Positions 17,982-47,837 of a DNA stretch of 64,000 nt are shown piece by piece. Position 1 is the stretch's first letter, and every line of letters starts with the position of its first letter. The position numbers and the translations under genes were made by a program. Under the pieces are notes generated by a model. That model had not been told where the DNA came from and searched no databases. It saw only the letters and a list, made by a program, of their open reading frames with translations. This stretch comes from Saccharospirillaceae bacterium (GTDB lineage: Bacteria; Pseudomonadota; Gammaproteobacteria; Pseudomonadales; Oceanobacteraceae), in NCBI GenBank assembly GCA_021208685.1, contig JAJOJJ010000045.1:62001-126000 (forward strand), read 5' to 3'.

Positions 17982-18548
17982 ATGAAAAAATTACTGCTGA
18001 CCGTTATCGCTGCCATGATCACTTTTTCCGCAAATGCGGAAACCCGTCTGGTACTTCCGCCACTGCCGCTGGATCAATATCTGGATTCGTTATACCTCAA
18101 TCACTCCATGGGATTCCGGGTAGGTACACCGACCACGCAGCAGAACGTCACCATCGACACCAAAGAACTGTACATCCGCCGCGAATATTCACAGTACAGC
18201 GTTGGCCTGCTGATCCCATCGCTGGAAATCGGCGTTGCCCAACTTAACGCCAATGATCTGCACGGCTACAACTACAGCTTCGGCCCATCGGTTTCCATTC
18301 CACTGGCTGGGTTCGGTTCCAAATTACAGCTGGTTGCCAGCGGCAAAGTGCACTGGTTAACCCGCCACGACTTTGGCCGTAAGCGCTACGGCGGCCCGGT
18401 ACAATGGACTTACGCTTTTGGTGGTAAATATCAGATGCAAGGCAACACCTACGTGGAATACATGTGGTCACACATGTCCAACGGCGACCGTTACGAATAC
18501 AACCCAGCCCTGGAAACCCACAACTTCACCATCGGTGTTAACTTCTGA
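17982..18548 (+). CDS. pagL: Lipid A 3-O-deacylase (PagL family)
   Basis: Outer-membrane beta-barrel enzyme that removes the 3-O-acyl chain of lipid A. 188 residues with a signal peptide (residues 1-19, cleavage after SANA). The body alternates hydrophobic and polar residues as in barrels and ends in Phe (GVNF). The catalytic set of PagL is recognisable: His164 and Ser166 in SHMSNGD and Glu178 twelve residues later, the same Ser-Glu spacing as in the Pseudomonas enzyme. The N-terminal 60 residues are less typical. A terminator follows, so it is a single-gene unit. Lipid A remodelling next to a capsule locus fits an envelope role. Confidence 0.78.
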   Translation: MKKLLLTVIAAMITFSANAETRLVLPPLPLDQYLDSLYLNHSMGFRVGTPTTQQNVTIDTKELYIRREYSQYSVGLLIPSLEIGVAQLNANDLHGYNYSFGPSVSIPLAGFGSKLQLVASGKVHWLTRHDFGRKRYGGPVQWTYAFGGKYQMQGNTYVEYMWSHMSNGDRYEYNPALETHNFTIGVNF

Positions 18549-18597: not shown

Positions 18598-18620
18598 GCC
18601 CGGGTCTCCCGGGCTTTTTT
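18598..18620 (+). terminator. Rho-independent terminator of pagL
   Basis: GCCCGGG-TCT-CCCGGGC followed by six T. Confidence 0.92.
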
Positions 18621-18627
18621 ATGCCTG

Positions 18628-18800
18628 AATGACGGAGGAATTGCCGGTATTATCGCGGCTGAAAGCTGGTCCCACGGTATCAATTGCTCTGCGGTTTCGC
18701 GGGCATGGCCCGTTCCTACGGTATCAATTGTTCTGCGGTATCGCGGGCATGGCCCGCTCCTACGGCCTTACGACTTTCACGGCTGAAAGCCGTTCCTTAC
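18628..18800 (+). repeat. REP cluster A (left flank of kpsSC)
   Basis: Contains one unit with a CGGCTGAAAGC stem, two REP units with the hairpin GCGGGC-ATG-GCCCGC followed by TCCTACGG and separated by TATCAATTG linkers, and a last CGGCTGAAAGCCG unit. The core 18651-18765 (115 bp) is nearly identical, in inverted orientation, to cluster B at 22368-22482, and similarity continues outward for about 23 bp. REP palindromes of this form are common in Pseudomonas-like genomes. Confidence 0.85.
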
Positions 18801-18814
18801 CAGCGGGTTATCCC

Positions 18815-20002
18815 TCACAGGATGCCATTTTCACGCATCGCTTCGATAACACGCTCAACGGTAAACGCATGTCGACGATAAAAACTACCGTTTATCTGGC
18901 CATTGTGTGAAAGATAATTACGGAAGCGCAAAAACAGGTCGTAATCAATTTCCGCCGGTTTCTGCCAGAATTCCTGTAACGACTGCTGGCTGCAAATACC
19001 CGGAATATTATAAAACGCATCCCCGAGCACCTTTACCGATGCTTCATGATAAAAAGCAGATATTGCTGTGGTGCTGTTAATGGTAATCACACCTTTGGCA
19101 TGGGTCAGCAATGTTGGCAAATGCAGATCATGGCAATACAACAGACGTCCGGCCAAACCATAACGCCGTTCAAGCTGCCTGATTAAATCACCATAATGGA
19201 TGTGACCACGATCCATCGGATGATGCTTGATCACCAGACAATCCTGCGGATCAGCATGCTCCGAAAATGAGGTGATAACCTCTTCAATACACTGCGCTAC
19301 CGATTCATAAGGCGAATGAAAACGGATTTGTGCATCATTAAATACCTGCAGTGGCAACAAAAAATAACGCTGATCAAAATCCCGCACCAATTGCTTCAGC
19401 TTGCCGCGCTCTGTGAGCTTGTACAAATAATGCCGGGCACCGGCCAATAACCAGCAAGCCGCTTCATAAACCGGCGAAAATGAACGGTGATGCTGATAAT
19501 GACGGAAGCGCCAATGACAGATAGCCGCCACATTATAATAAGCCGAACAATAGCGAACACGATTCCAAAGATGTCCACCGATAGCGAGTTCCGGCTCGAC
19601 ATCTTTATCCTGCCAGCAGGCAATTCGTTCCGCACTGATACCGCTGTAACCATTCACACCATCGCGTTCAAACGTCAGATGATTGGGACGGATATAACCT
19701 TCTTCAAATGCATAAAAGCCAACGTCCATGGCACTGGTAACCTGACGGGCAATACGGTGATATAAACGACAATCACCATAAACACACACCGTATTAATTT
19801 TATGATCACGGATATAAGTGCGCAAAAAATCAGGCCACTGCTCCACCGATCCGGTAAAATTAACTGCACCTATTCCGCGACTGTACCAGCTGTCGCCACC
19901 ATTAAAATTAATTTTATGCGCGACCACACCCTGTTCACGCAGCGCAAGAATAAGTTGCTTGAAAAAGGGGCCCATTGGTCCCTGTAAAAATAGTACTGCC
20001 AC
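18815..20002 (-). CDS. kpsS: Capsule polysaccharide Kdo transferase KpsS
   Basis: 395 residues, start GTG with AAAGGA upstream. Matches the KpsS family: LFLQGPMGPFFKQL at the N-terminus, YAFEEGYIRPNHLTFE, and a C-terminal KHHPMDRGHIHYGDLI and INSTTAISAF region. Family knowledge: KpsS starts the poly-Kdo linker on (lyso)phosphatidylglycerol at the inner face of the cytoplasmic membrane, and KpsC extends it; the capsule chain is then built on this linker. It lies 23 bp after kpsC, so one transcript is expected. The pair is bounded by inverted REP clusters, apart from kpsMTED 18 kb away. Confidence 0.9.
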   Translation of the reverse strand: MAVLFLQGPMGPFFKQLILALREQGVVAHKINFNGGDSWYSRGIGAVNFTGSVEQWPDFLRTYIRDHKINTVCVYGDCRLYHRIARQVTSAMDVGFYAFEEGYIRPNHLTFERDGVNGYSGISAERIACWQDKDVEPELAIGGHLWNRVRYCSAYYNVAAICHWRFRHYQHHRSFSPVYEAACWLLAGARHYLYKLTERGKLKQLVRDFDQRYFLLPLQVFNDAQIRFHSPYESVAQCIEEVITSFSEHADPQDCLVIKHHPMDRGHIHYGDLIRQLERRYGLAGRLLYCHDLHLPTLLTHAKGVITINSTTAISAFYHEASVKVLGDAFYNIPGICSQQSLQEFWQKPAEIDYDLFLRFRNYLSHNGQINGSFYRRHAFTVERVIEAMRENGIL

Positions 20003-20025
20003 AATTATCCTTTAACGGGTTACAA

Positions 20026-22146
20026 CTAACCCAATAACGCATCAAATAAGTATTTTGCTTTTCGTAACTGCCGCGCCAGCCAGCTGCTTCTGAGTGCACG
20101 CTCACTGCCCGATAACGCGGCCCGCTCACTCGCCAGCTGCTGAATAACATACTCCGGAGAGGTCAGCATACGGGTATCCCAATTAACACAGCGGCAATAT
20201 TCAACCAGACAAACATACAACAGCCCTGCTGTCGTTAAACGGGCAGTACGCTGCGGAAATTCAAGCCGATCATCCGTCAGTCCCCAACCGGCATAAAACG
20301 GTGAACCATACACGGTAACAGACTTCCCCCGGACCAACGCTTCAAAACCACTGAGCGACGTCATGGTGCACACACGGTCACACCCTTCAATGAGGTAATG
20401 CATGTCGATATCGCTCACATAGGCATCCGCCAGCGTCAACGCTTTTACCTTTCCCAAAGCACCGGGACGCACACCCGAATACAAATCCGGATGCTCTTTA
20501 TAAATAATATAAGCATCGGGAAAATCATGACGAACCTGCTCTAATAAACCGTAATTACTCTTGATTGCACCACGACTGCAGGCAATCGATAAGTCCTGCT
20601 CAAACTGTCCCGGTACCAGCAACAAAGGCCGCCCCTGCGCCTGCTGACGATAAGCGTCCAGTATTGCGTCCTGATGACCTGCACGGACCTCACCAACGTT
20701 GTATTTGGTAACCGCCAGATCCCGCAACAACTGCTGCAACGCCAGTCCACGGCTTAACTGTCCTGCGGTTAATTGGCTATGGTTAAGCAGGCCAATAAGA
20801 TCAGACTTCTCATCCGGCTGATAATAAAGACCGCCTTTATCCACCACCAGGCACGAAGGACGACGCAAGTCAGCCCCCAACCCAACCGAACGGACAAAGC
20901 CATCTTCAATACGCCAGATCTCTGGCTCAGAGCCATCCGCCCGAACCGGCAACCGCTGCAATAATTCCTGATGACCTGCCCCCCACAGCAACAAAGCCCT
21001 GCGTTCAGCCGGGGCTGCTGCCAGTTTCTTCAGCAATGCAGACTCGTTACTCACAAACTCAACCCGGGCAGCCATGCGCCCGATAAATACCGGAATAAAT
21101 GCCCGCTTCCACAATGAAAAACCCCAGGCATAACACACATCAACCGGCTCAATACCGCGTGGTTGCAGTTGCAGCAATAACCAATCGAGAACCGCCTCAG
21201 CGTCACAGCGACACCCCTCTTCAGGATGCACATAACGCGGATACAAAAGCAGTGCGGCAACGACCAATTGCGGCAGGCTTAACCTGGCCGTTCTGCGATT
21301 GCAGCGCAGAACATCGATGGTTAATCCCCATCCGGCATAAAAAGGCATGCCAAAACAATACACCTGCTTGCCGTACAGCAAAGCCTCAAAACCCAGCTGG
21401 GAAGTGACACAATAAACCGCCGCTACAGCGGCCATCAGATCAGCAATATTGCAATCATCGGTCAGTAAAGCGACCCTCGGATTCTGCAGATCGGCAGCCG
21501 AAAAATAGCCCTTCTTTTTACCGTGCAAAACATCAGGATGAGTTTTGATCACAATACGGTGGTCAGGATAATCTGCCAGCGCCGAAGCCAGCATTTGCGC
21601 AAAACTTCCGGCATCAGCCAGACCACCGCCAACCGACATATCACCGAATGTCTGATCAATCACAAGCACAACACCACAGGACTGGCTGTCGTGTAAAAGC
21701 CACTCCGGAACAGGAACACGGACATGGTTGTATTTAGAAACACCCGCCGCAGTCATGCGCCGGATTAACGTCTCGGCACGCTGAAGATAATCATTATCAG
21801 ATAAAAGCTCAGACTGCTGACAAAGAACCTCCAGATCGGAAGGATGGGTAGCGTCGTAATACATACCAAGGCGGTCAACAATCAGCGACAAACGCTGCTT
21901 ATCATGGCTTGGATGCCCGGCATAACCAATAAAGCCATCCTCCAGACGGCAGTATTCAAGTGCACCGTTTTGAGCAAACTGCAGCGCCCTGGCGGTATTG
22001 GCTTTATTACCCCAGCCAACCACCAGATCATCAGAGGCCGCACGACGCCAGGGACGTATCCTGCGGATCGGGTAACCATCGAGAAACGCTGATAACTGAG
22101 TGTTGGCAGCAATCCCTTGAGATGCTGTCCAGATTGATTCCGGCAA
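20026..22146 (-). CDS. kpsC: Capsule polysaccharide Kdo transferase KpsC (two glycosyltransferase modules)
   Basis: 706 residues (E. coli KpsC about 675). A TTG start at 22146 is the first possible one after an in-frame stop and has AGGTG seven bases upstream; the N-terminus aligns with KpsC there. Two homologous halves are obvious: each has a RxEDGF segment (CRLEDGFIGYAG; WRIEDGFVRSVGLG), a VDRLGMYYD/VDKGGLYYQ strand, a KTHPDVL/KEHPDLYSG motif and a GFEAL-GK-YAGWGLT end. Family knowledge: the modules add beta-Kdo residues with alternating linkages to the lipid primer set by KpsS. Kdo supply genes (kpsF, kpsU) are not in the window. Confidence 0.92.
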   Translation of the reverse strand: MPESIWTASQGIAANTQLSAFLDGYPIRRIRPWRRAASDDLVVGWGNKANTARALQFAQNGALEYCRLEDGFIGYAGHPSHDKQRLSLIVDRLGMYYDATHPSDLEVLCQQSELLSDNDYLQRAETLIRRMTAAGVSKYNHVRVPVPEWLLHDSQSCGVVLVIDQTFGDMSVGGGLADAGSFAQMLASALADYPDHRIVIKTHPDVLHGKKKGYFSAADLQNPRVALLTDDCNIADLMAAVAAVYCVTSQLGFEALLYGKQVYCFGMPFYAGWGLTIDVLRCNRRTARLSLPQLVVAALLLYPRYVHPEEGCRCDAEAVLDWLLLQLQPRGIEPVDVCYAWGFSLWKRAFIPVFIGRMAARVEFVSNESALLKKLAAAPAERRALLLWGAGHQELLQRLPVRADGSEPEIWRIEDGFVRSVGLGADLRRPSCLVVDKGGLYYQPDEKSDLIGLLNHSQLTAGQLSRGLALQQLLRDLAVTKYNVGEVRAGHQDAILDAYRQQAQGRPLLLVPGQFEQDLSIACSRGAIKSNYGLLEQVRHDFPDAYIIYKEHPDLYSGVRPGALGKVKALTLADAYVSDIDMHYLIEGCDRVCTMTSLSGFEALVRGKSVTVYGSPFYAGWGLTDDRLEFPQRTARLTTAGLLYVCLVEYCRCVNWDTRMLTSPEYVIQQLASERAALSGSERALRSSWLARQLRKAKYLFDALLG

Positions 22147-22267
22147 ATCCTGTCACCTGTATTGTCGTCAGCTAAATTACGCCAGACAGCACCCTCGCGC
22201 CAACCTGTTGAATATTCAGCCAGACATATGAACTGCACACAGAAAACCGGTGCAATAAAACGCGCGC

Positions 22268-22273
22268 AATATA
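22268..22273 (-). promoter_or_regulatory. Possible extended -10 for kpsC-kpsS
   Basis: On the minus strand TGG-TATATT, an extended -10 form, lies about 120 bp upstream of kpsC. No good -35 is present. The 629-bp gap 22147-22775 also holds REP cluster B and the GTCATTGC-type repeats. Confidence 0.35.
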
Positions 22274-22367
22274 CCACACCCGTAAAAACATGAGGCGAGT
22301 AGTCGCTCACAATGTCAGGATAAATCTTGATGTAAAACAGACTCTTAATTAATCGCTGCAATGTATA

Positions 22368-22507
22368 CCGTAGGAGCGGGCCATGCCCGCGATACCACAG
22401 CACAATTGATAGCGTAGGAGCGGGCCATGCCCGCGAAACTGCAGAACAATTGATACCGTAGGAACGGCTTTCAGCCGCGATAACACGGGCAAAACCATCC
22501 GTCATTG
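22368..22507 (-). repeat. REP cluster B (right flank of kpsSC)
   Basis: Inverted, near-identical counterpart of cluster A: 115-bp core 22368-22482 with two GCGGGCATGGCCCGC units and one CGGCTGAAAGCCG unit joined by TATCAATTG linkers, plus about 25 bp of weaker similarity on the outer side (ATGACGGA). Confidence 0.85.
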
Positions 22508-22574
22508 CAAGGAGGTACGGTGAAGCAATCACCCGAAAAATGTCATGACAAAAAAACACGACGAAGCAATCTCC
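22499..22574 (+). repeat. GTCATTGC...GAAGCAATC dispersed-type repeat
   Basis: GTCATTGCAAGGAGG-(n)-TGAAGCAATC and a second CGACGAAGCAATCTCC occur in 76 bp. From memory, strings of the type GTCATTGCGAGGAGCGAAGCAATC are frequent dispersed intergenic repeats in unrelated bacteria. The edge overlaps the outer part of REP cluster B. Confidence 0.4.
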
Positions 22575-22732
22575 GGCCTGCCAAAAATCCACCGGCCAAA
22601 GCCAATCAAACTGCCGAAATAACCAGCGGCAGTAAACCCGGCACCCACCCGAAAATACAACCAATCGCGTAATTCACACCTACAGCTTCACAAAACAGAA
22701 GCGCAGCACAGGAACAAAAATTACAGTTTTGC

Positions 22733-22775: not shown

Positions 22776-24152
22776 ATGAAACACGTGCTGTTTATCAGCC
22801 ACTCCAAACGTGGAGCCCACTTTTATCAGGACGCCTCGGCCCGCTATCGCTGCATATTCCCTGCTGAACACCTCAATGCATGCGGTATAACCGCCCATGT
22901 TGTACACGTCAGCCAGATTCATCAGCTTGATCTCAACAACTACAGCCACCTGATTGCGCACCGGCCACAAGACAGCTACCGAGTCAGACAATATCTCAAA
23001 AAGGCGCGCAAAGCCGCCGTGCAATGCATTGTTGATTTTGACGACCTGCTGTTCCACCCCGAAATAACACCAGAAAGCCCCGCCGTGTTATCCGGCAGCA
23101 TGCCTTTGCGCGAAGCCAGAAGACAGGCGCGGCTCTACCGCAAAGCACTCCTGCGGTTCGATCGCTGCTGGGCATCCACGCAACCGCTGGCCGAAGAACT
23201 GCGCAAAGCACACCCCGGCGCGCAGATTGATGTTTTTTATAACAAACTGCCCGCCCGCTGGCCTTACCTTACAGCCCTGATTCCGGCCAAAGAGCGTCTG
23301 GCACATAAAATCATCCGCTACCTGCCGGGCACCAGTCATCACCGCCACGACTTTGCCAAAATAGAACAGGCTCTGGCAGGCATACTGCACAAAAACCCCG
23401 ACATCACCCTTGAAATTGTCGGACCACTCGACTGTGATGAAAGCCAGTTTCCGGAAACGCAACTCCAACGACAGGCCTTTGTTACCTTTGAAGAACTGCC
23501 CGCCATTATTGCCAGCAGCTGGGTAACCATTGCACCGCTGCAAAACAACCGCTTTAACCAATGCAAAAGCGGCTTAAAATTCTGGGAAAGCGGAATACTG
23601 GCAGTACCCGTTGTCAGCAGCCCGTCGCACGATATAAACCGTTGCGCCAATGCAGGATTAATAACCGGTATATCTGCCGATAACATAGACGAAATCACAT
23701 CGCAGCTGTCCGATCCGGAGCAATACGCACGCCTGTGCGATGCCGCCCGGACAAAAGCACAGGAATCCGTATTCACCAGCGAAAACCCCGATGGCAGACT
23801 GCAAAACCTGAAGCTTGAAAACCACATCAAATCCAGGCTTACAGAACAAAAAACAGAGGAAGAACGGTTCAAATACTACAGCAATCAACAGTTGAAAATG
23901 ACAGCTCATTTCGGCCCCGACTGGCCAGCCACCATTCTCAACCCGACCCACAGCCAGTATCAGACGGCCCGTGAACTATGGCTGGCAGAAACCGAATTCC
24001 ACACGGATGACATCCAGCAGCTGAATATCAAAGCCAAAGCACTCACCGAAGCTGCCAGGCAACAAAAAACAAACCGGATATTGCGAAAAGCACGAAAGCT
24101 GATCCGAACTCCGGGATTGTTCTTTAAAGATGCATTGGCAAAAAGGCTGTAG
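22776..24152 (+). CDS. Glycosyltransferase (GT4-like), capsule locus
   Basis: 458 residues, ATG with AGGAAAG upstream. Two-domain GT-B look: N-terminal half with VDFDDLLFHPEITPES and a DRCWASTQPLAEEL segment, C-terminal half with LEIVGPLDC, FVTFEELPAIIASSWVTIAPL and KSGLKFWESGILAVPVVSS, which corresponds to the donor-binding end of GT4 enzymes. Residues after about 350 form a charged helical tail (EEERFKYYSNQQLKM...). It is the only rightward gene in the capsule region and ends 35 bp before the convergent GT4-like gene. Sugar specificity is unknown; it might decorate or start the polymer. Confidence 0.7.
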   Translation: MKHVLFISHSKRGAHFYQDASARYRCIFPAEHLNACGITAHVVHVSQIHQLDLNNYSHLIAHRPQDSYRVRQYLKKARKAAVQCIVDFDDLLFHPEITPESPAVLSGSMPLREARRQARLYRKALLRFDRCWASTQPLAEELRKAHPGAQIDVFYNKLPARWPYLTALIPAKERLAHKIIRYLPGTSHHRHDFAKIEQALAGILHKNPDITLEIVGPLDCDESQFPETQLQRQAFVTFEELPAIIASSWVTIAPLQNNRFNQCKSGLKFWESGILAVPVVSSPSHDINRCANAGLITGISADNIDEITSQLSDPEQYARLCDAARTKAQESVFTSENPDGRLQNLKLENHIKSRLTEQKTEEERFKYYSNQQLKMTAHFGPDWPATILNPTHSQYQTARELWLAETEFHTDDIQQLNIKAKALTEAARQQKTNRILRKARKLIRTPGLFFKDALAKRL

Positions 24153-40068: not shown

Positions 40069-40290
40069 AATAGTGCCTTTCATTGTTATTAGTAGCCTGC
40101 CGATACTGATCAGCGGCTTTTATTTTTAAATGCAAAATCTTTCCTGATTTTGCTGGCGGCGCAACGCTGCTTCCCCATGCGTTTCACCATGTTTTTTTAC
40201 GCTGATGTGGTTTTACACGCAGCGCATGCTTTCTGTTATTGCTGTCGTGGTGCCTGGTGTTTGGCCTTTCGGAATCACCGGCCTCCCGGC

Positions 40291-40395
40291 ATCACGACTG
40301 AAAGTCGTTTCTACCGACTGCAAGCATCACGACTAAAAGTCGTTCCTGCACACTTCAAGCATCACGACTGAAAGTCGTTCCTGTAGACTGCAAGC
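40291..40395 (+). repeat. Three tandem 35-bp repeats with a conserved hairpin
   Basis: Units 40291-40325, 40326-40360 and 40361-40395, each exactly 35 bp, begin ATCACGACT and contain the stem CGACT-GAA-AGTCG (GAA is AAA in unit 2) followed by TTCCT/TTTCT and a CAAGC end. The same layout occurs in REP clusters A and B as CGGCT-GAA-AGCCG, a compensated base-pair change. They fill most of the space between kpsD and the rfbA leader; the rest of the 549-bp gap holds two AT-rich inverted repeats. No spacers, so not CRISPR. Confidence 0.85.
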
Positions 40396-40461
40396 GTCAT
40401 CAGTGTTGTCCCGGTAACGCTGCAATCCATCCATTCACTCTTCTGCATCACGTTGTTTTTC

Positions 40462-42084
40462 TTACAACGCCAACACCACCGCAGCCGATACAGCAACCTG
40501 ATAAATGACCTGGGTAAGATCTTTGGTCAGTTGCAGTGCTTTCAGGTCTGGTTTTGCCAGAACAAACACTTCATCCCCCGGACCAACCAGCTTACTGTCG
40601 TCGAGATCACGATTCGCTGAAATAAACGCACCGTTCGGTTTCATCACCAGCGTGTTCATATCGTCCAGATCGCCATTTGTACCACCGGCCTGGCGAATGT
40701 AGTCTTCAACGGTCTGTCCTTTTTGATAGGTAATGGCCGTCGGGAACAGTACTTCACCATGGATCATAACCAGATTACGGCGCGCAGGAATCACCACTTT
40801 ATCTCCCTGTTGCAGCAGTACATCTTCGGGTTTAAAACCTTCGGTCAGCAACACCTGACCACGGGGCTCTACGGTTTTTGCCCGCTCAATCCATTTGAGG
40901 ATGGTTTCAGCTTCGGCTTTACGCAGTTCGGCAGTTTCACGGGTACTGGAACGCGCGGTCAGCACGCTTTGTTCGAGTGCGCCGAGCGATGCCATGAGCA
41001 TTTCTTTTTGTCGTTCAGCAACCGATTTACGGTATAACTGAACCGCGCCTTTATTAGAGAGTTCGGTATATTCCACTTTATCGAGCAGGTCTTTCAGGCT
41101 GGTACCCCACGGCATTACCATTTCAATCTGCGAATTATGCTCGCCCACAATTTCAACGCTGATGCTGGTTGGGCGCAACTGCGAGCTGACTTTAATCAGT
41201 GCTCCGGGTTTAACCTGAACACCGACGATCTCGTTAATGCTGAACTGACGCGCAGTGACTTCTGTCCCCTGTGGTTCAACCAGTGTTACATGAGTCGCTT
41301 TTTCATTTTCGACCACGGCATTAACAATTTCTGACAGCATTCCGATGCTGCCATTCAGTTCGTATTTACCGCTGAAACCGACTTCACCTTCGATGGAAAC
41401 TTCGCCGGATTTACGTCCGACAAATATGACATCACCGTCCTGAAGCTGGATATCCGGCATTTGGCCACGTTCAATAAAGGCATACAGATCTATGTTGTAT
41501 TGGGTTTTATTGTGGCGCTTAACTTCAATATGCCGGTAGCTGCCAAGGTCTTTACGGATACCACCAGCCTGATCAATAAAACGCAGTACGCTATCGGCAC
41601 TCTGCCCTTCGTAAAGTCCGGGTTTGTTGACCAATCCGGACAGGAATACTTTCACGGTCTGGCTTGATGCCAGTGTGATGTAGGCTTCTACGTTGGATTT
41701 GTATACCCGCTTGATGGATTTGAGCACCACGTCATTCAGGCTGCGGTTTTCAACGCCCAGTACTTTTACCGGCCCGACCTTGGGGATAAATACATTCCCC
41801 TGAGCATCAACGACCACTTCCTGCTGAACATCCAGACCACCCCAGAGCTGCACTAACAGGGTATCGCCCTGAGCGATGCGGTAGTTGGGGTTGATGCCGG
41901 TAAACGATGCGGTTTTAAACCCCCCGGTAAATAGCCATCCACCAAAAATACCTTTGAGGTGCTCATCGGAAATGACTGCACGGGCCTCGGCATTTTCATC
42001 CTGAGCCAGTTCAACAGACTGTGCCTGCAGAGAGAAAAGCACAGCAATCAATGCAACAGAACGTAATAAAATCCGGCTTAACAT
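40462..42084 (-). CDS. kpsD: Capsule polysaccharide export outer-membrane/periplasmic protein
   Basis: 540 residues (E. coli KpsD about 558), Wza/OPX superfamily. Signal peptide about residues 1-23. A poly-export domain near residue 70 (NYRIAQGDTLLVQLWGGLDVQQEVVVDAQGNVFIPKVG) is followed by several SLBB-type beta-grasp repeats (VFLSGLVNKPGLYEG, SIEGEVGFSGKYEL, IHGEVLFPTAITYQKGQTV). It passes the capsule across periplasm and outer membrane with KpsE. ATG with AAGGA, 3 bp after kpsE. A hydrophobic C-terminus (VIYQVAVSAAVVLAL) is typical of KpsD. Confidence 0.85.
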   Translation of the reverse strand: MLSRILLRSVALIAVLFSLQAQSVELAQDENAEARAVISDEHLKGIFGGWLFTGGFKTASFTGINPNYRIAQGDTLLVQLWGGLDVQQEVVVDAQGNVFIPKVGPVKVLGVENRSLNDVVLKSIKRVYKSNVEAYITLASSQTVKVFLSGLVNKPGLYEGQSADSVLRFIDQAGGIRKDLGSYRHIEVKRHNKTQYNIDLYAFIERGQMPDIQLQDGDVIFVGRKSGEVSIEGEVGFSGKYELNGSIGMLSEIVNAVVENEKATHVTLVEPQGTEVTARQFSINEIVGVQVKPGALIKVSSQLRPTSISVEIVGEHNSQIEMVMPWGTSLKDLLDKVEYTELSNKGAVQLYRKSVAERQKEMLMASLGALEQSVLTARSSTRETAELRKAEAETILKWIERAKTVEPRGQVLLTEGFKPEDVLLQQGDKVVIPARRNLVMIHGEVLFPTAITYQKGQTVEDYIRQAGGTNGDLDDMNTLVMKPNGAFISANRDLDDSKLVGPGDEVFVLAKPDLKALQLTKDLTQVIYQVAVSAAVVLAL

Positions 42085-42087
42085 GTA

Positions 42088-43350
42088 TTAATCCTTGTGC
42101 TCTTTAACAATGGCAAAAACCAGACGTCCCACCAGGTACATAAGCAACAGTGTCACAAACCAGGTAAGAATGTTGTAGGCTCTGCGCGGGTACTTATCTT
42201 CTTCTGCTAATGCTGGGTACTGAACAATAAGAAGATGCTTAAGCTTGCGGTAGGCATCAGCTCTTACAGATTCAAGACTCGCAAGTGATGATTTATAGAG
42301 ATCAGAAGCCAATTCTACGCTAAGTTTAATTTCCTGATAGATTGTATTGACTTTATTCAGAGACTGATCACCGGTTGACGAGGTAAGACGGGATTTTTCT
42401 TCCGCCAGTTGTTTGGTCAATGAATCGATTAAGTTTCTTTGAGAACGTACTTCCGGTGCGTCATCACGCATGACTGCACGCAGTTCTTTAAGTCGCGCAT
42501 CAGCCTTGATAATTTCAGCCTGCAAGCCGTTGATTGCCTGCACCAGTGCGCCACCCTCCTGTTCCGGGCTGTATAATTTATTATCGTCCTGAAATGCCAG
42601 CAATCGGGCTTGTTGCTGCTTGAGGATATCGTGGCTTCTTTCTACCTCTCCCTGTGCATAACGAAGCTGCTCGGTTGCCATTTTATTGCCGATGCTGTTA
42701 ATGAATTTCTCACTCAATTCGAGCACTTTATTTGCCAGAAGTAATGCAAATTCCGGATCAAAAGCCTGAACCTCGACATAAACAATGTCTGACATCTCGT
42801 CATGATGCACATGAAGGTGCTTTTTGTAGTAATCAACATAGTCTTCCACTGTCGCGGAAGCAGACAACCGACTGAACCAGTCAGCACCAGCCTGTTGATA
42901 GTGCCCCTTCAACCCAATTGACTCATCCAGAGAAACCGCCATGTCACGCGATTCAATAAACTCCTTGATAATCAGGGCGTCGCGCATTGTACCTGTAACC
43001 GCGCCAAGGGATGCCAGGCCAGCAATTGGCAAATCCGAACTGCCTGACTGCTTAACGACAAACTGAGCCTCTGACACATAACGCGGTGAAGCAATGATGC
43101 CGAAATAGCCAATTAAAATCATGGACGCCAAAACAACAAAGGCAAATGACCCCATTTTGGCCCAGGTATAATCCAAACCTTTCTGCGTTTTCAGGAAGGC
43201 CTGTGAATCTTTAAAAAACTGTAACGGATCGCGTTTCAGTTTTTTCAGTTTCCGCTTAATCGGAGTCATGGGAACTTCCGGAGTTTTGACCTCGGCAGTA
43301 ACCTTCTCTGCATTTTTTGCCGGAGAGTCTTTGTTAACGATTTCGGACAT
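42088..43350 (-). CDS. kpsE: Capsule export inner-membrane protein (polysaccharide co-polymerase-like)
   Basis: 420 residues from ATG 43350 (CAGGAAG upstream); the track start at 43413 lies inside kpsT. It overlaps the kpsT end by 17 nt. A cytoplasmic N-terminus, a first membrane helix (FAFVVLASMILIGYFGIIA), a PRYVSEAQFVVKQSG start of the periplasmic domain, long periplasmic coiled coil (ERSHDILKQQQARLLAFQDD ...), and a second helix near the C-terminus (ILTWFVTLLLMYLVGRLVF). KpsE/CtrB proteins link the ABC transporter to KpsD. Confidence 0.9.
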   Translation of the reverse strand: MSEIVNKDSPAKNAEKVTAEVKTPEVPMTPIKRKLKKLKRDPLQFFKDSQAFLKTQKGLDYTWAKMGSFAFVVLASMILIGYFGIIASPRYVSEAQFVVKQSGSSDLPIAGLASLGAVTGTMRDALIIKEFIESRDMAVSLDESIGLKGHYQQAGADWFSRLSASATVEDYVDYYKKHLHVHHDEMSDIVYVEVQAFDPEFALLLANKVLELSEKFINSIGNKMATEQLRYAQGEVERSHDILKQQQARLLAFQDDNKLYSPEQEGGALVQAINGLQAEIIKADARLKELRAVMRDDAPEVRSQRNLIDSLTKQLAEEKSRLTSSTGDQSLNKVNTIYQEIKLSVELASDLYKSSLASLESVRADAYRKLKHLLIVQYPALAEEDKYPRRAYNILTWFVTLLLMYLVGRLVFAIVKEHKD

Positions 43351-44005
43351 ATACTTCCTGATACTCTTCAATTGCTTGTTCAAGGTGATCAAAGTAATGC
43401 AGTGTATTTTCACGGATTACGACACCGGCATCGCAGAATTTTCTGAGCTGATCCAGTGAGTGATTGACCATGATTACCTTGGTTTTTTCGTATTTTTCAA
43501 GCAGAAGTTTCTGACTTTTAGCCTTAAATGCAGCATCACCTACAGCGGTCAGCTCATCAATAAGGAGCACATCAAAATTAAAATCAAACCCCATCGTTAA
43601 ACCAAAGGTGACACGCGCACGCATACCGTTGGAGTAGGTTTTTACCGGCTCGTCAAAATAGGCACCTATTTCAGCAAAATCGGCTACTTGCTGCTCTATC
43701 TGACGGGTTTCTTTGTAGCCATGTATGCGGGCCACAAAGCGGACATTTTCACGCCCCGTCATTGAGCCTTGCAGCCCACCCTGCAACCCCAGTGGCCAGG
43801 AGATATTTTTGTCCGTTGTAATTTCGCCACTGCTGGGAATATCGGTACCTCCGATCATACGGATAAGGGTAGATTTACCGACACCGTTGGGGCCCAGAAT
43901 GGCGATATTACGGTCCGTTGGCAGTTCAATATTGACATCACGGAACACATAACTGCGTCCCTGCTTAGTGGGGTAATACTTACTGACGCTGTTGAAACGG
44001 ATCAT
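43334..44005 (-). CDS. kpsT: Capsule ABC exporter ATP-binding protein
   Basis: 223 residues. Walker A GPNGVGKST, Q-loop region LGLQGGLQGSMTGRENV, signature-like TYSNGMRARVTFG, Walker B VLLIDELTAVGD and switch His (MVNHS). Pairs with KpsM to flip the finished, lipid-linked capsule across the inner membrane. Start overlaps the kpsM stop (ATGA). Confidence 0.95.
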   Translation of the reverse strand: MIRFNSVSKYYPTKQGRSYVFRDVNIELPTDRNIAILGPNGVGKSTLIRMIGGTDIPSSGEITTDKNISWPLGLQGGLQGSMTGRENVRFVARIHGYKETRQIEQQVADFAEIGAYFDEPVKTYSNGMRARVTFGLTMGFDFNFDVLLIDELTAVGDAAFKAKSQKLLLEKYEKTKVIMVNHSLDQLRKFCDAGVVIRENTLHYFDHLEQAIEEYQEVYVRNR

Positions 44006-44781
44006 GAGGCAACAAACCTTTGGTGATTTGCGCGGTAAAGCATTAATCCCATTGCCTGTGTCACCAAAGCAAAAGCACCCAGGTAGTACCAGCTACCCAA
44101 GGGCGTTGTATAAGATGCAAAAAAGGCATCACGGCTCAGCTCGATGGCATGAAACAGCGGATTCCAGCTGAACAGGTACCAGTATTGTTCCGGCACCATG
44201 GTTGCGCTGTAAAATACGCCGGATATAAACATCATCGGTGTCATTACAAGATTGATGAGCTTTGTTACATCATCCCAGTACAGCTGGGTGACACAGAAGA
44301 TCATGCCCAAACCCGCCGCTACAAAAACCATGAGTACAGTGGCAGCCAGCAAGTGAATGAAGTCATCCGGCAGGACATCCAGTCCGACCCAGGCAAGAAT
44401 CAGCAACAGCAATACATAAACAATCAGGAAAGTTGCAAACTCGATAATGAGGCGCGTAACCAGAGGATCAATTGGTGCGACCTGACGGTAGCCAAGCAAT
44501 CCTTTATTAGCCTGTACTGCGGCTGATAATTGAGTAAGCAGCTTGGAAAATAATTTAAAAGGAAGAATGCCGCTTAGCATAAACAGAGCGACCGGCACAC
44601 CCGACAGACTATGCCGTCCGATGGCACTGAACAGCGCCACCATAATCGCTGCCTGTCCGGCAGGCTCGGCAAGAGCCCAGAAATAACCAAGGCGATTGGC
44701 TCCGAAGCGGGTACGCAATTCACGGATGAAGAGAGCATGAACCGTATCGCGCATGATTTGCCAGGAAGTGCGGGATTTCAT
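44002..44781 (-). CDS. kpsM: Capsule ABC exporter permease
   Basis: 259 residues from ATG 44781, with TGGAG upstream; the track start at 44844 is not needed. ABC-2 type permease with six hydrophobic segments. TRFGANRLGYFWALAEP is the standard N-terminal amphipathic signature and FISGVFYSATMVPEQYWYLFSWNPLFHAIELSRDAFF the standard late loop. First gene of the leftward capsule transcript; the predicted promoter is about 320 bp upstream. Confidence 0.94.
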   Translation of the reverse strand: MKSRTSWQIMRDTVHALFIRELRTRFGANRLGYFWALAEPAGQAAIMVALFSAIGRHSLSGVPVALFMLSGILPFKLFSKLLTQLSAAVQANKGLLGYRQVAPIDPLVTRLIIEFATFLIVYVLLLLILAWVGLDVLPDDFIHLLAATVLMVFVAAGLGMIFCVTQLYWDDVTKLINLVMTPMMFISGVFYSATMVPEQYWYLFSWNPLFHAIELSRDAFFASYTTPLGSWYYLGAFALVTQAMGLMLYRANHQRFVAS

Positions 44782-45421
44782 TCTGTCTCCATTTGAAAAA
44801 GCATGGTGCTGAAAAGCGCTGTGCGCTGTCCGGCATGTGTCCATACTGCACTCTCTGACGTAAGCCCGGTGTCAGGCTGCTGATCCATCATGTATCGGAG
44901 GGCCTCCTGGCCTGTCACTGGGTCTGTACTGCCTGTCATCTGAGGCCGCCTTATGAGGGCGCCCGTGGTTTGCACTGTCTGGGCGAAGTCAAAAATGGCT
45001 CAGACTGACCGTGCAAAACATCGTCAAGAATTTGACTTCTGCTAACCTGTGTTTCACAAAACGGGAACTTTCAGTTAACGAGTGTTATTCAGATGTAACC
45101 AAGCGCCGCATTATAGTTTAAAGGGGCATATTTTCAAGAAGCGGGGAGCCGGATTGGCTATTCTGCGCTGTTTGTTTTTGCCGGCCTTAATTGACCATCC
45201 GGCTGTTACAGTCACATTACAAACTCAACAAAAATCATGGCACCCTGCTGAACCCCGCCACCCCTGACCTTGCGCTGGTAAGTCTGCAGCATGCCGTTTT
45301 TGTTCTACGGAAAAAAGCTTATTTATGACATCCGTGTGACGCGCCGGGGCCATTCGGGACAATATGAAAATGTTGACCTGACAAGTGTAACGGGCGGGGA
45401 ATTTCACCCTTCCCGACGTCA
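44782..45421. other. 640-bp non-coding region upstream of kpsM
   Basis: Holds the kps promoter (45110-45137) and an unusually long leader of about 320 nt. A 65-codon GTG-started frame (44778-44975, minus) ends on the kpsM start (ATGA), but lacks a Shine-Dalgarno and a recognisable product. I searched by eye for the ops/JUMPstart element (GGCGGTAG) on both strands and did not find it. No T-run terminator for pbpC is seen at 45300-45421. Confidence 0.6.
45110..45137 (-). promoter_or_regulatory. kpsM operon promoter
   Basis: On the minus strand TTGAAA, a 16-nt spacer and a perfect TATAAT. One of the best sigma-70 promoters in the window. Transcription should begin near 45103 and run left into kpsM. 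Confidence 0.75.
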
Positions 45422-47837
45422 TCAGTAAACCGTAACCGTACGCCTGTCCAATTCTCCTTGTGTATCCATAACGACTACTTCCTGTTCACCGGTGTCAAAA
45501 AACCGATGGGTCAGAACTTCGGCTTCGCCGGTACGGCCAATGTGCAGACCGTTCACGTACCAGTCGCGCTCGCCCAGCCCACCCTGAGCATGCAGCGAGA
45601 TTTCCGGCAGCGTCGCACTGCCTCCGGCATGGGTTCGGCTGGAGCGCAGAATGAGGCCATCCTGAATACCGGTAATCTGCAGGGGTTCGAGCGCCAGCAC
45701 CGGAGGTTCATGGCAACGCGGATCAACGGCAGGTAAGCGGTTACGCAAGCGCTGTCTGGCAGGCAGCCAGGGTTCCAGTGATCGCGGCCAGAGTGCCAGC
45801 TGATGCGCTGTTCGGGCAGGCACATTGCAACGGCCATCGACCAGAAGGCCGCGCTCACTGGTCCAGTAGGTTAACGGATTGCGCCATAAACCATCGCTGC
45901 GCTCATCACGCAAGGTCGGCGGCAGCTGACGCCGAACCAGCCAGGCCTGATGGGTCTGAAAGCAGTGATCGGCGGGGGTCTCTGCGGCGCGGTTCCCCAG
46001 TGGCCAGCAAATGGTTTCCTGACGAACCTGCTCCGGCTGCGGCAGAACCCCGGGCTTACGTTCAATACGATCAAATAACTGGAACAGCACCGGCAGCGCA
46101 CTGAGCGCGCCGTAATGTCCGGGCGATGGCGTACCGTCCGGGCGGCCAAACCACACGCCAATGGTATACGCCGGTGTCACCCCCACGGCCCAGGCATCAC
46201 GGAAGCCATAACTGGTGCCGGTTTCCAGGCGATGCTGCGGTCGTTACCCTGCAGGGCATCACTGCGCGCACGGTCCGGACGCGGACTGCGCAGCATATCG
46301 TTCAGCACCCAGGCGGTGTCTGCGGAAAACAACCAGCGCGAGCCTGCGACGGAGTGTGATTCTTCCCTCAGATAACGCAGCGGCCAGACCTGACCGCCAT
46401 TCGCCAGCGCCGAATACAATTGCACCAGCTGCGCCAACGATAATCCGCCCCCCCCCAGCGCCATACTCAGATTGGGTTTACCGTCGCCGGGAATACGGTA
46501 GCGTGCTCCGGCATTGGCAAGAGCGGCGGCAAAGCGCTGCGGAGTAACCGCTTCCAGCACCTGCACCACCGGCAGATTTAGCGACTGCCGTAACGCCTCG
46601 GTAGCCGATACCGGGCCGGAGAAATGGCGGGTAAAGTTTTCCGGCTGATAATCGGTAAAATAACGCGGCACATCGCGCAATAAACTGGCGGAGTGAATCA
46701 GCCCGTCTTCTATCGCCAGACCATAAATAAATGGCTTTAAGGTGGAACCCGGTGAGCGCTGCGCCTGCACCATATCGACATGGCCAAAGCGCGAATCATC
46801 CGCAAAATCGGCTGAACCGGCATAGGCGCGCACCTCGTGAGTGGCATTATCCAGCACCAGAATGGCGGCGGAATGACTGGGCGGGAAGCGCTGAATTTCC
46901 TGAGCCAGATAATCTTCAATCCCGTACTGAAGGTCGGCATCCAGCGTGGTTTTAATCAGGCTTTTATCGGCATTTTGCCGCCGTAATTCCCGCGCCAGCA
47001 GAGGAGTCAGCTGCGGCGTATACGGCTGATAGGCCAGCACAGGTTCCAGCAGTGCCTGCTGATAATCGCGCTGGCTGATCACCCCGAATTCCAGCATGCG
47101 CTGCAGCACTTTGTTTCGCGCACGTAACGCCCGCTGCGGATAACGGTCAGGACGTAAACGCGACGGTGCCTGCGGCAATACGGCCATTAACGCAGCTTCG
47201 GCCAGCGATAAATCCAGCGCCGGTTTATCCAGATACAGACGACTGGCCGCCCCCACGCCTTCAATCACACCCCCCATGGGCGCGTAATTTAAATAGAGGG
47301 TGAATATTTCGTCTTTGCTGTAATGCCATTCCAGCTGCAATGCCCGCAGTGCCTGTTCCAGCTTGCCGCCGACGGAACGGGAATGCGGGTGAAAACGCCG
47401 CGCCACCTGCATAGAAATGGTCGAGCCACCGGATACCACACAACCGCAGCGCCAGTTTTGCCAGGCAGCACGCAGCAACGCGAAAGGATTGATTCCGGGG
47501 TGATAATAAAACCAGCGGTCTTCGTAATTCAGTAATGCCTCTTTATAAAAAGGCGATACGTCGCTCAGCTCTACCGGATAACGCCAGACGCCATTGCTGT
47601 CGGCAAAGGCCCGTAGTGGCCGCTCATGGCGATCAACCACCAGCTGGGCAAAATCGTTTTGCGCGTTCGCCGTCTGGCGTTGCGGATCGGGTACGGCCAG
47701 TGGCCATAACCAATCGGCACTGTTTAACAGCAGGCAAAAACTGCCAGCCACAGCAGATATCGTGTTGTTCTGGCTTGTGGCTGGCGGAAAAACCGTGCCG
47801 CCTTTAACGCGGCACGGTTGGCGGATAGATGACTCAC
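45422..47837 (-). pseudogene. pbpC: Penicillin-binding protein 1C, two frameshifts
   Basis: Bifunctional peptidoglycan glycosyltransferase/transpeptidase, usually about 770 residues, here in three pieces of frame. Piece 1 (GTG 47837) encodes RQPQARTTRYLLWLAVF, the start of the membrane anchor, and then stops; adding one base to the A5 run at 47736-47740 joins it to CLLLNSADWLWPLAV of the track ORF 46177-47751. That ORF holds the GT51 domain (YEDRWFYYHPG, GGSTISMQVAR), and the transpeptidase SPGSTLKPF and SLN motifs. It leaves frame at AWK exactly at the KTGT motif; one added base at the TTT of 46222-46224 restores WKTGTSYGFRDAWAVGVTPAYT, and the C-terminal BiPBP_C domain follows (45422-46186). 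Both lesions are one-base losses in homopolymers, so sequencing error is possible. Confidence 0.85.

Follow-up and report, generated by a model that had tools for sequence, protein, structure and literature searches.

In a 64-kb stretch of contig JAJOJJ010000045.1 from a Saccharospirillaceae bacterium (the whole stretch is hereafter called the window), the capsule gene pair kpsS-kpsC (kpsSC) is flanked by two closely similar repeat blocks in inverted orientation. These blocks are very probably clusters of repetitive extragenic palindromic (REP) sequences, resembling bacterial interspersed mosaic elements (BIMEs) and belonging to a GTAG family resident in the genus, which would have entered two intergenic gaps after the acquisition of the whole capsule cassette, the bracketing of kpsSC being coincidental.

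The inverted arms, located at 18641-18765 (plus strand) and 22368-22492 (minus strand), are 125 nt long, 91% complementary and 3602 nt apart, and no other inverted repeat in the window comes close to them. They lie in the gap between pagL and kpsS and in that between kpsC and a group 1-like glycosyltransferase gene (GT1), and the local score of these gaps is 206 in the inverted orientation versus 25 in the direct-orientation control. The 115-bp cores (18651-18765 and 22368-22482) share 106 of 115 positions once one of them is reverse-complemented, with a longest common identical run of 29 nt. Each block has a single hairpin of type A (CGGCTGAAAGC...) and two of type B (GCGGGCATGGCCCGC), in the same order and with 44-bp spacing and common linkers: the A-type REP at 18653-18675 and the B-type REPs at 18697-18719 and 18741-18763 in the left block, and the B-type REPs at 22370-22392 and 22414-22436 and the A-type REP at 22458-22480 in the right one. 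The near-identity, the shared order of hairpins and linkers and the position around kpsSC given in the preliminary description of this DNA were therefore confirmed. All units within each block point in one direction and do not alternate in orientation, so the blocks are better called BIME-like than BIMEs in the strict sense. Beyond the left block there is a further A-type REP (18777-18799, plus strand; 3 mismatches to the A pattern) that has no counterpart on the right, and the right block runs on into a decayed CGTC-type repeat (about 22500-22574, plus strand; CGTCATTGCAAGGAG...GACGAAGCAATCTCC; end motifs matched with 1 and 0 mismatches), so that both blocks belong to larger mosaics. Sequence similar to the CGTC-type repeat, whose ends (CGTCATTGC... 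and GACGAAGCAATCTCC) are found at the right block, was also seen next to the REP clusters at C31 and C7. No Rfam family was found for the blocks (best match, E = 0.97).

The units of the blocks recur throughout the genome. A 23-nt REP B pattern and an A pattern were searched in the genome (4.0 Mb), up to 3 mismatches being allowed and the reversed patterns serving as control, and they gave 51 and 24 matches, respectively, versus 0 for either control, which for the B pattern excludes chance matching. The resulting 75 units form 33 clusters, and 16 of the 17 clusters that were examined overlap no open reading frame (ORF) of at least 150 aa, in agreement with an extragenic location. The exception is the right window block, which lies under a minus-strand ORF (21882-22664) that was taken as spurious, since it also crosses the start of kpsC in another frame. 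The B-type unit has the structure GTAG-GAGCGGGC-CAT-GCCCGCGA, with GTAG at one foot of the palindrome, and its other strand reads as the GTAG-footed palindrome GTAGGAGCGGGCCATGCCCGCGA; the right copy of the A-type unit, GTAG-GAACGGCTTTCAGCCGCGA, carries the GTAG foot as well. The blocks are thus members of a GTAG-type REP family. A third composite block, 79% alike to the left one, was found between unrelated genes (G000:C31:10039-10180), and the order of an A unit and a B unit at 44 bp is seen again both there and at C10:13499. Opposed REP units are present in clusters C14, C28 and C41. Several contig ends (G000 C19, C20, C22 and C32) have REP units at a distance of about 200 bp or less, which suggests that these repeats break the assembly there.

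A possible agent of the spread was found in the same genome. Three Y1_Tnp genes are present, one of which (G000:C20, L090:6289-6756) encodes a REP-associated tyrosine transposase (RAYT; NF047646, 136 bits, with a cut-off of 80 bits). This gene has B-type REPs on both sides, the nearest pair being in opposite orientation, and it matches the REP-rayt-REP arrangement already described (PMC2817692). Judged from this arrangement, it is likely the cognate RAYT of the GTAG REP family. Of the three suggestions made in the preliminary description, an origin of the blocks by recombination or by copying of the RAYT type is the only one to gain support, namely from the genome-wide family, the REP-bracketed RAYT gene and the third composite copy.

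The family resembles the GTAG-tagged REPs (Di Nocera 2013, PMC3733652; Nunvar 2010, PMC2817692) in its GTAG foot, its short GC-rich imperfect palindrome (GTAGGAGCGGGCCATGCCCGCGA), its intergenic location and its many copies, and the window B unit is close to the REP of Pseudomonas putida KT2440 (TGTGGGAGCGGGCaTGCCCGCGAA; PMC2817692). The number of copies found (75 units with up to 3 mismatches) is lower than is usual for REPs, which exceed 100 per genome. With BIMEs the blocks share the regular REP spacing, the common linkers, the hybrid A/B types and an admixed CGTC-type repeat, whereas in classic BIMEs the REP orientation alternates. In P. fluorescens SBW25, two tandem REP arrays that are almost identical lie apart from each other and point in opposite directions (Bertels and Rainey 2011, PMC3116915), so mirror-image REP copies are already known; the difference is that the window pair is only 3.6 kb apart.

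The relatives bear on the question of whether the repeats had moved the genes. In G019, G020 and G063, which represent three further genera of the family, pagL, kpsS, kpsC and GT1 are arranged and oriented exactly as in the window, with pagL convergent to kpsS and GT1 divergent from kpsC. Their gaps hold no inverted repeat, the best inverted matches scoring 19-23 versus 206 in the window, and they are shorter: 42-58 bp versus 272 bp between pagL and kpsS, and 168-204 bp versus 629 bp between kpsC and GT1. When the kpsC-GT1 gaps of the relatives were set beside that of the window, no insertion point was visible by eye. Because the same order and orientation occur in three repeat-free genera, kpsSC neither moved nor was inverted as a unit, and the contrary proposal of the preliminary description is contradicted. 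The REP family (up to 2 mismatches) was not found in any sampled relative with a full-length KpsC.

That kpsSC came in as a REP-bracketed unit, in the manner of a compound transposon, is accordingly extremely improbable, even though the repeats flank exactly two genes and 18 kb separates this pair from kpsMTED. In addition to the unchanged neighbours in the three genera, pagL adjoins kpsS in loci of Shewanella and Aliagarivorans, and the congeners of the window organism are without the whole cassette, not merely without the pair. A compound transposon proper was considered and rejected, because a transposase gene would not fit into blocks of only 125 bp and the neighbours of kpsSC are the same in the repeat-free relatives.

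The inverted arrangement also raises the possibility that recombination between the 115-bp blocks flips kpsSC and switches capsule expression, as the preliminary description had proposed. The blocks are indeed inverted, 3.6 kb apart and about 91% identical, with a 29-nt identical run, and RecA-dependent inversion is possible in principle. We nevertheless regard such a switch as very unlikely. The orientation of kpsSC relative to pagL is constant in all 10 relatives that have pagL beside kpsS; besides G019, G020 and G063, pagL is convergent to kpsS in G018, G027, G011, G058, Aliagarivorans and two Shewanella loci, and in none of them were REP blocks required for the genes to come together. The orientation relative to GT1 is likewise constant in G019, G020 and G063. 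Moreover, about 220 bp lie between the right block and kpsC, inside the bracket, and contain an extended -10-like sequence (TGGTATATT), identified by eye on the kpsC strand; a consensus promoter scan of the kpsC-GT1 gap found no promoter. The promoter is most likely to be found within the bracket and would probably turn together with kpsSC upon inversion. No recombinase gene was recognised beside the blocks in the ORFs that were read or the proteins that were scanned around the locus, not all ORFs having been scanned, and many other REP clusters are equally open to recombination. RecA-dependent inversion between the blocks is physically possible and receives no support from the present analysis; that it rarely occurs and leaves a minority of cells with kpsSC reversed, with altered kpsSC transcription and with capsule export changed in part of the population, seems to us hardly probable. 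The proposed capsule switch is thus left without support. The situation that, according to the preliminary description, would make the bracketing coincidental, with the same REP blocks at many unrelated intergenic sites and kpsSC always in one orientation, is largely what was observed.

We also considered whether the blocks could be a dedicated regulatory feature of kpsSC, for instance matched hairpins in the untranslated regions that pair within one transcript. As RNA of the kpsCS strand, both blocks fold better than shuffled sequences (z = -3.98 for the right block and z = -2.06 for the left), and a transcription start to the right of the right block would give the kpsCS message complementary 5' and 3' ends. 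Single-strand DNA folding of the left block was not notable (z = -1.00). A dedicated role is still scarcely credible, as the gene order is kept in relatives without the blocks, the stretch between the right block and kpsC holds a plausible promoter, and the same repeats occur beside unrelated genes elsewhere. The left block stands after a terminator-like hairpin of pagL and after the stop codon of kpsS, and a position downstream of genes is the usual one for REPs (PMC3733652); the right block is situated in the divergent kpsC-GT1 gap. Only a generic function is likely: with their hairpins, the REPs located where the 3' ends of pagL and kpsS meet could delimit transcripts or stabilise them.

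The insertion of the REP clusters into an already assembled cassette is the reading that we prefer, and the comparison with the congeners is consistent with it. KpsC was not found in any of the eight congeners (8/8), and the genes from pagL to kpsM downstream of dapD gave no matches in the readable congeners, with the exception of rmlB/rmlD-like genes. After dapD come rml genes and pbpC in G008, G003 and G002, pbpC in G001 and rml genes in G004; in G005 dapD is followed by a gap and then by the next conserved gene (GGDEF), and in G006 directly by the GGDEF gene. The neighbourhood in G007 was not readable (the contig ends at dapD). The REP family, on the other hand, is present in six of the eight congeners and in G012. 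The whole cassette, with kpsSC in its present order and orientation, would accordingly have been acquired from outside the genus between dapD and pbpC, and REP clusters would then have been inserted into the pagL-kpsS and kpsC-GT1 gaps in the recipient lineage, their spread probably being driven by the RAYT transposase. One of the two blocks was probably copied from, or gene-converted with, the other: the two are closer to each other than to the third copy, which suggests local copying or mutual conversion.

Several points weigh against this interpretation. Apart from the blocks at kpsSC, no two clusters of the assembly lie within 4 kb of each other; in a random model with 33 clusters in 4.0 Mb, one or more pairs this close arose in 66% of trials. 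The two blocks are about 91% alike, versus 79% for the left block and the third copy, so they are not simply independent insertions, and local copying or conversion must be assumed. Finally, the proposed insertion after acquisition is based on a species-level comparison.

The cassette in which the blocks reside consists of pagL, kpsSC, glycosyltransferases, rml genes and kpsMTED, and lies between dapD and pbpC. The pagL-like lipid A 3-O-deacylase gene (17982-18548, plus strand; PF09411, 45.8 bits) is the convergent left neighbour of kpsS, and it is followed, just left of the left block, by an intrinsic-terminator-like hairpin (18598-18620, plus strand) with a 7-pair all-GC stem, a 3-nt loop and TTTTTT. 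The two flanked genes are a kpsS-like beta-Kdo linker capsule gene (18815-20002, minus strand; Pfam PF05159; NCBIfam NF050054, 368 bits, below the equivalog cut-off of 600 bits) and a kpsC-like beta-Kdo linker capsule gene (20026-22146, minus strand; 706 aa), whose product shows PF05159 in three stretches and is 52-54% identical to its KpsC-like counterparts in G019 and G020. GT1 (22776-24152, plus strand; PF13692, 21.1 bits, sub-threshold) is the divergent right neighbour of kpsC. A position of pagL beside kpsS is conserved in loci L088, L089, L179-L183, L102, L131 and L138, and that of GT1 beside kpsC in L088, L089 and L179. The kpsMTED genes (40462-44844) belong to the same polysaccharide cassette and lie on the same strand, 18-22 kb from kpsSC.

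In having kpsC and then kpsS on one strand, beside polysaccharide genes, the locus is like the ATP-binding cassette (ABC)-transporter-dependent (group 2/3-like) capsule loci. Eighty relatives were fetched, no close relative of the window genome being among them, and in the 58 loci of other organisms with both genes, these are on the same strand in 55 and kpsC comes first in 50. The order of kpsC and then kpsS is therefore the usual one among the fetched loci, and the pagL and GT1 flanks of the window pair are as in other members of its family.

Three further observations concern the same region. The dapD-pbpC stretch (17.9-44.9 kb of the window) behaves like a variable polysaccharide island, in which the congeners have rml genes only or nothing recognisable from the window. 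Between rmlA and kpsD of the same cassette there are three tandem 35-bp REP-like units of the CACGACTGAAAGTCGTTCC type (40289-40399, plus strand). In addition, pbpC is seemingly split by a 1-nt frameshift (46187-46221), its homologous parts being 35 nt apart versus 36 nt in the congener G008; the split appears to be either a pseudogene or a sequencing error.

The blocks around kpsSC are real repeats, of an ordinary kind, and not a genetic switch; the idea of a switch that turns the capsule on and off, tempting as it is, has no support and can be dropped. The comparison with repeat-free relatives was what made it possible to distinguish between genes that repeats flank and genes that repeats have moved. 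In addition, an unnamed GTAG REP family, together with its likely RAYT, is now documented in this genus.
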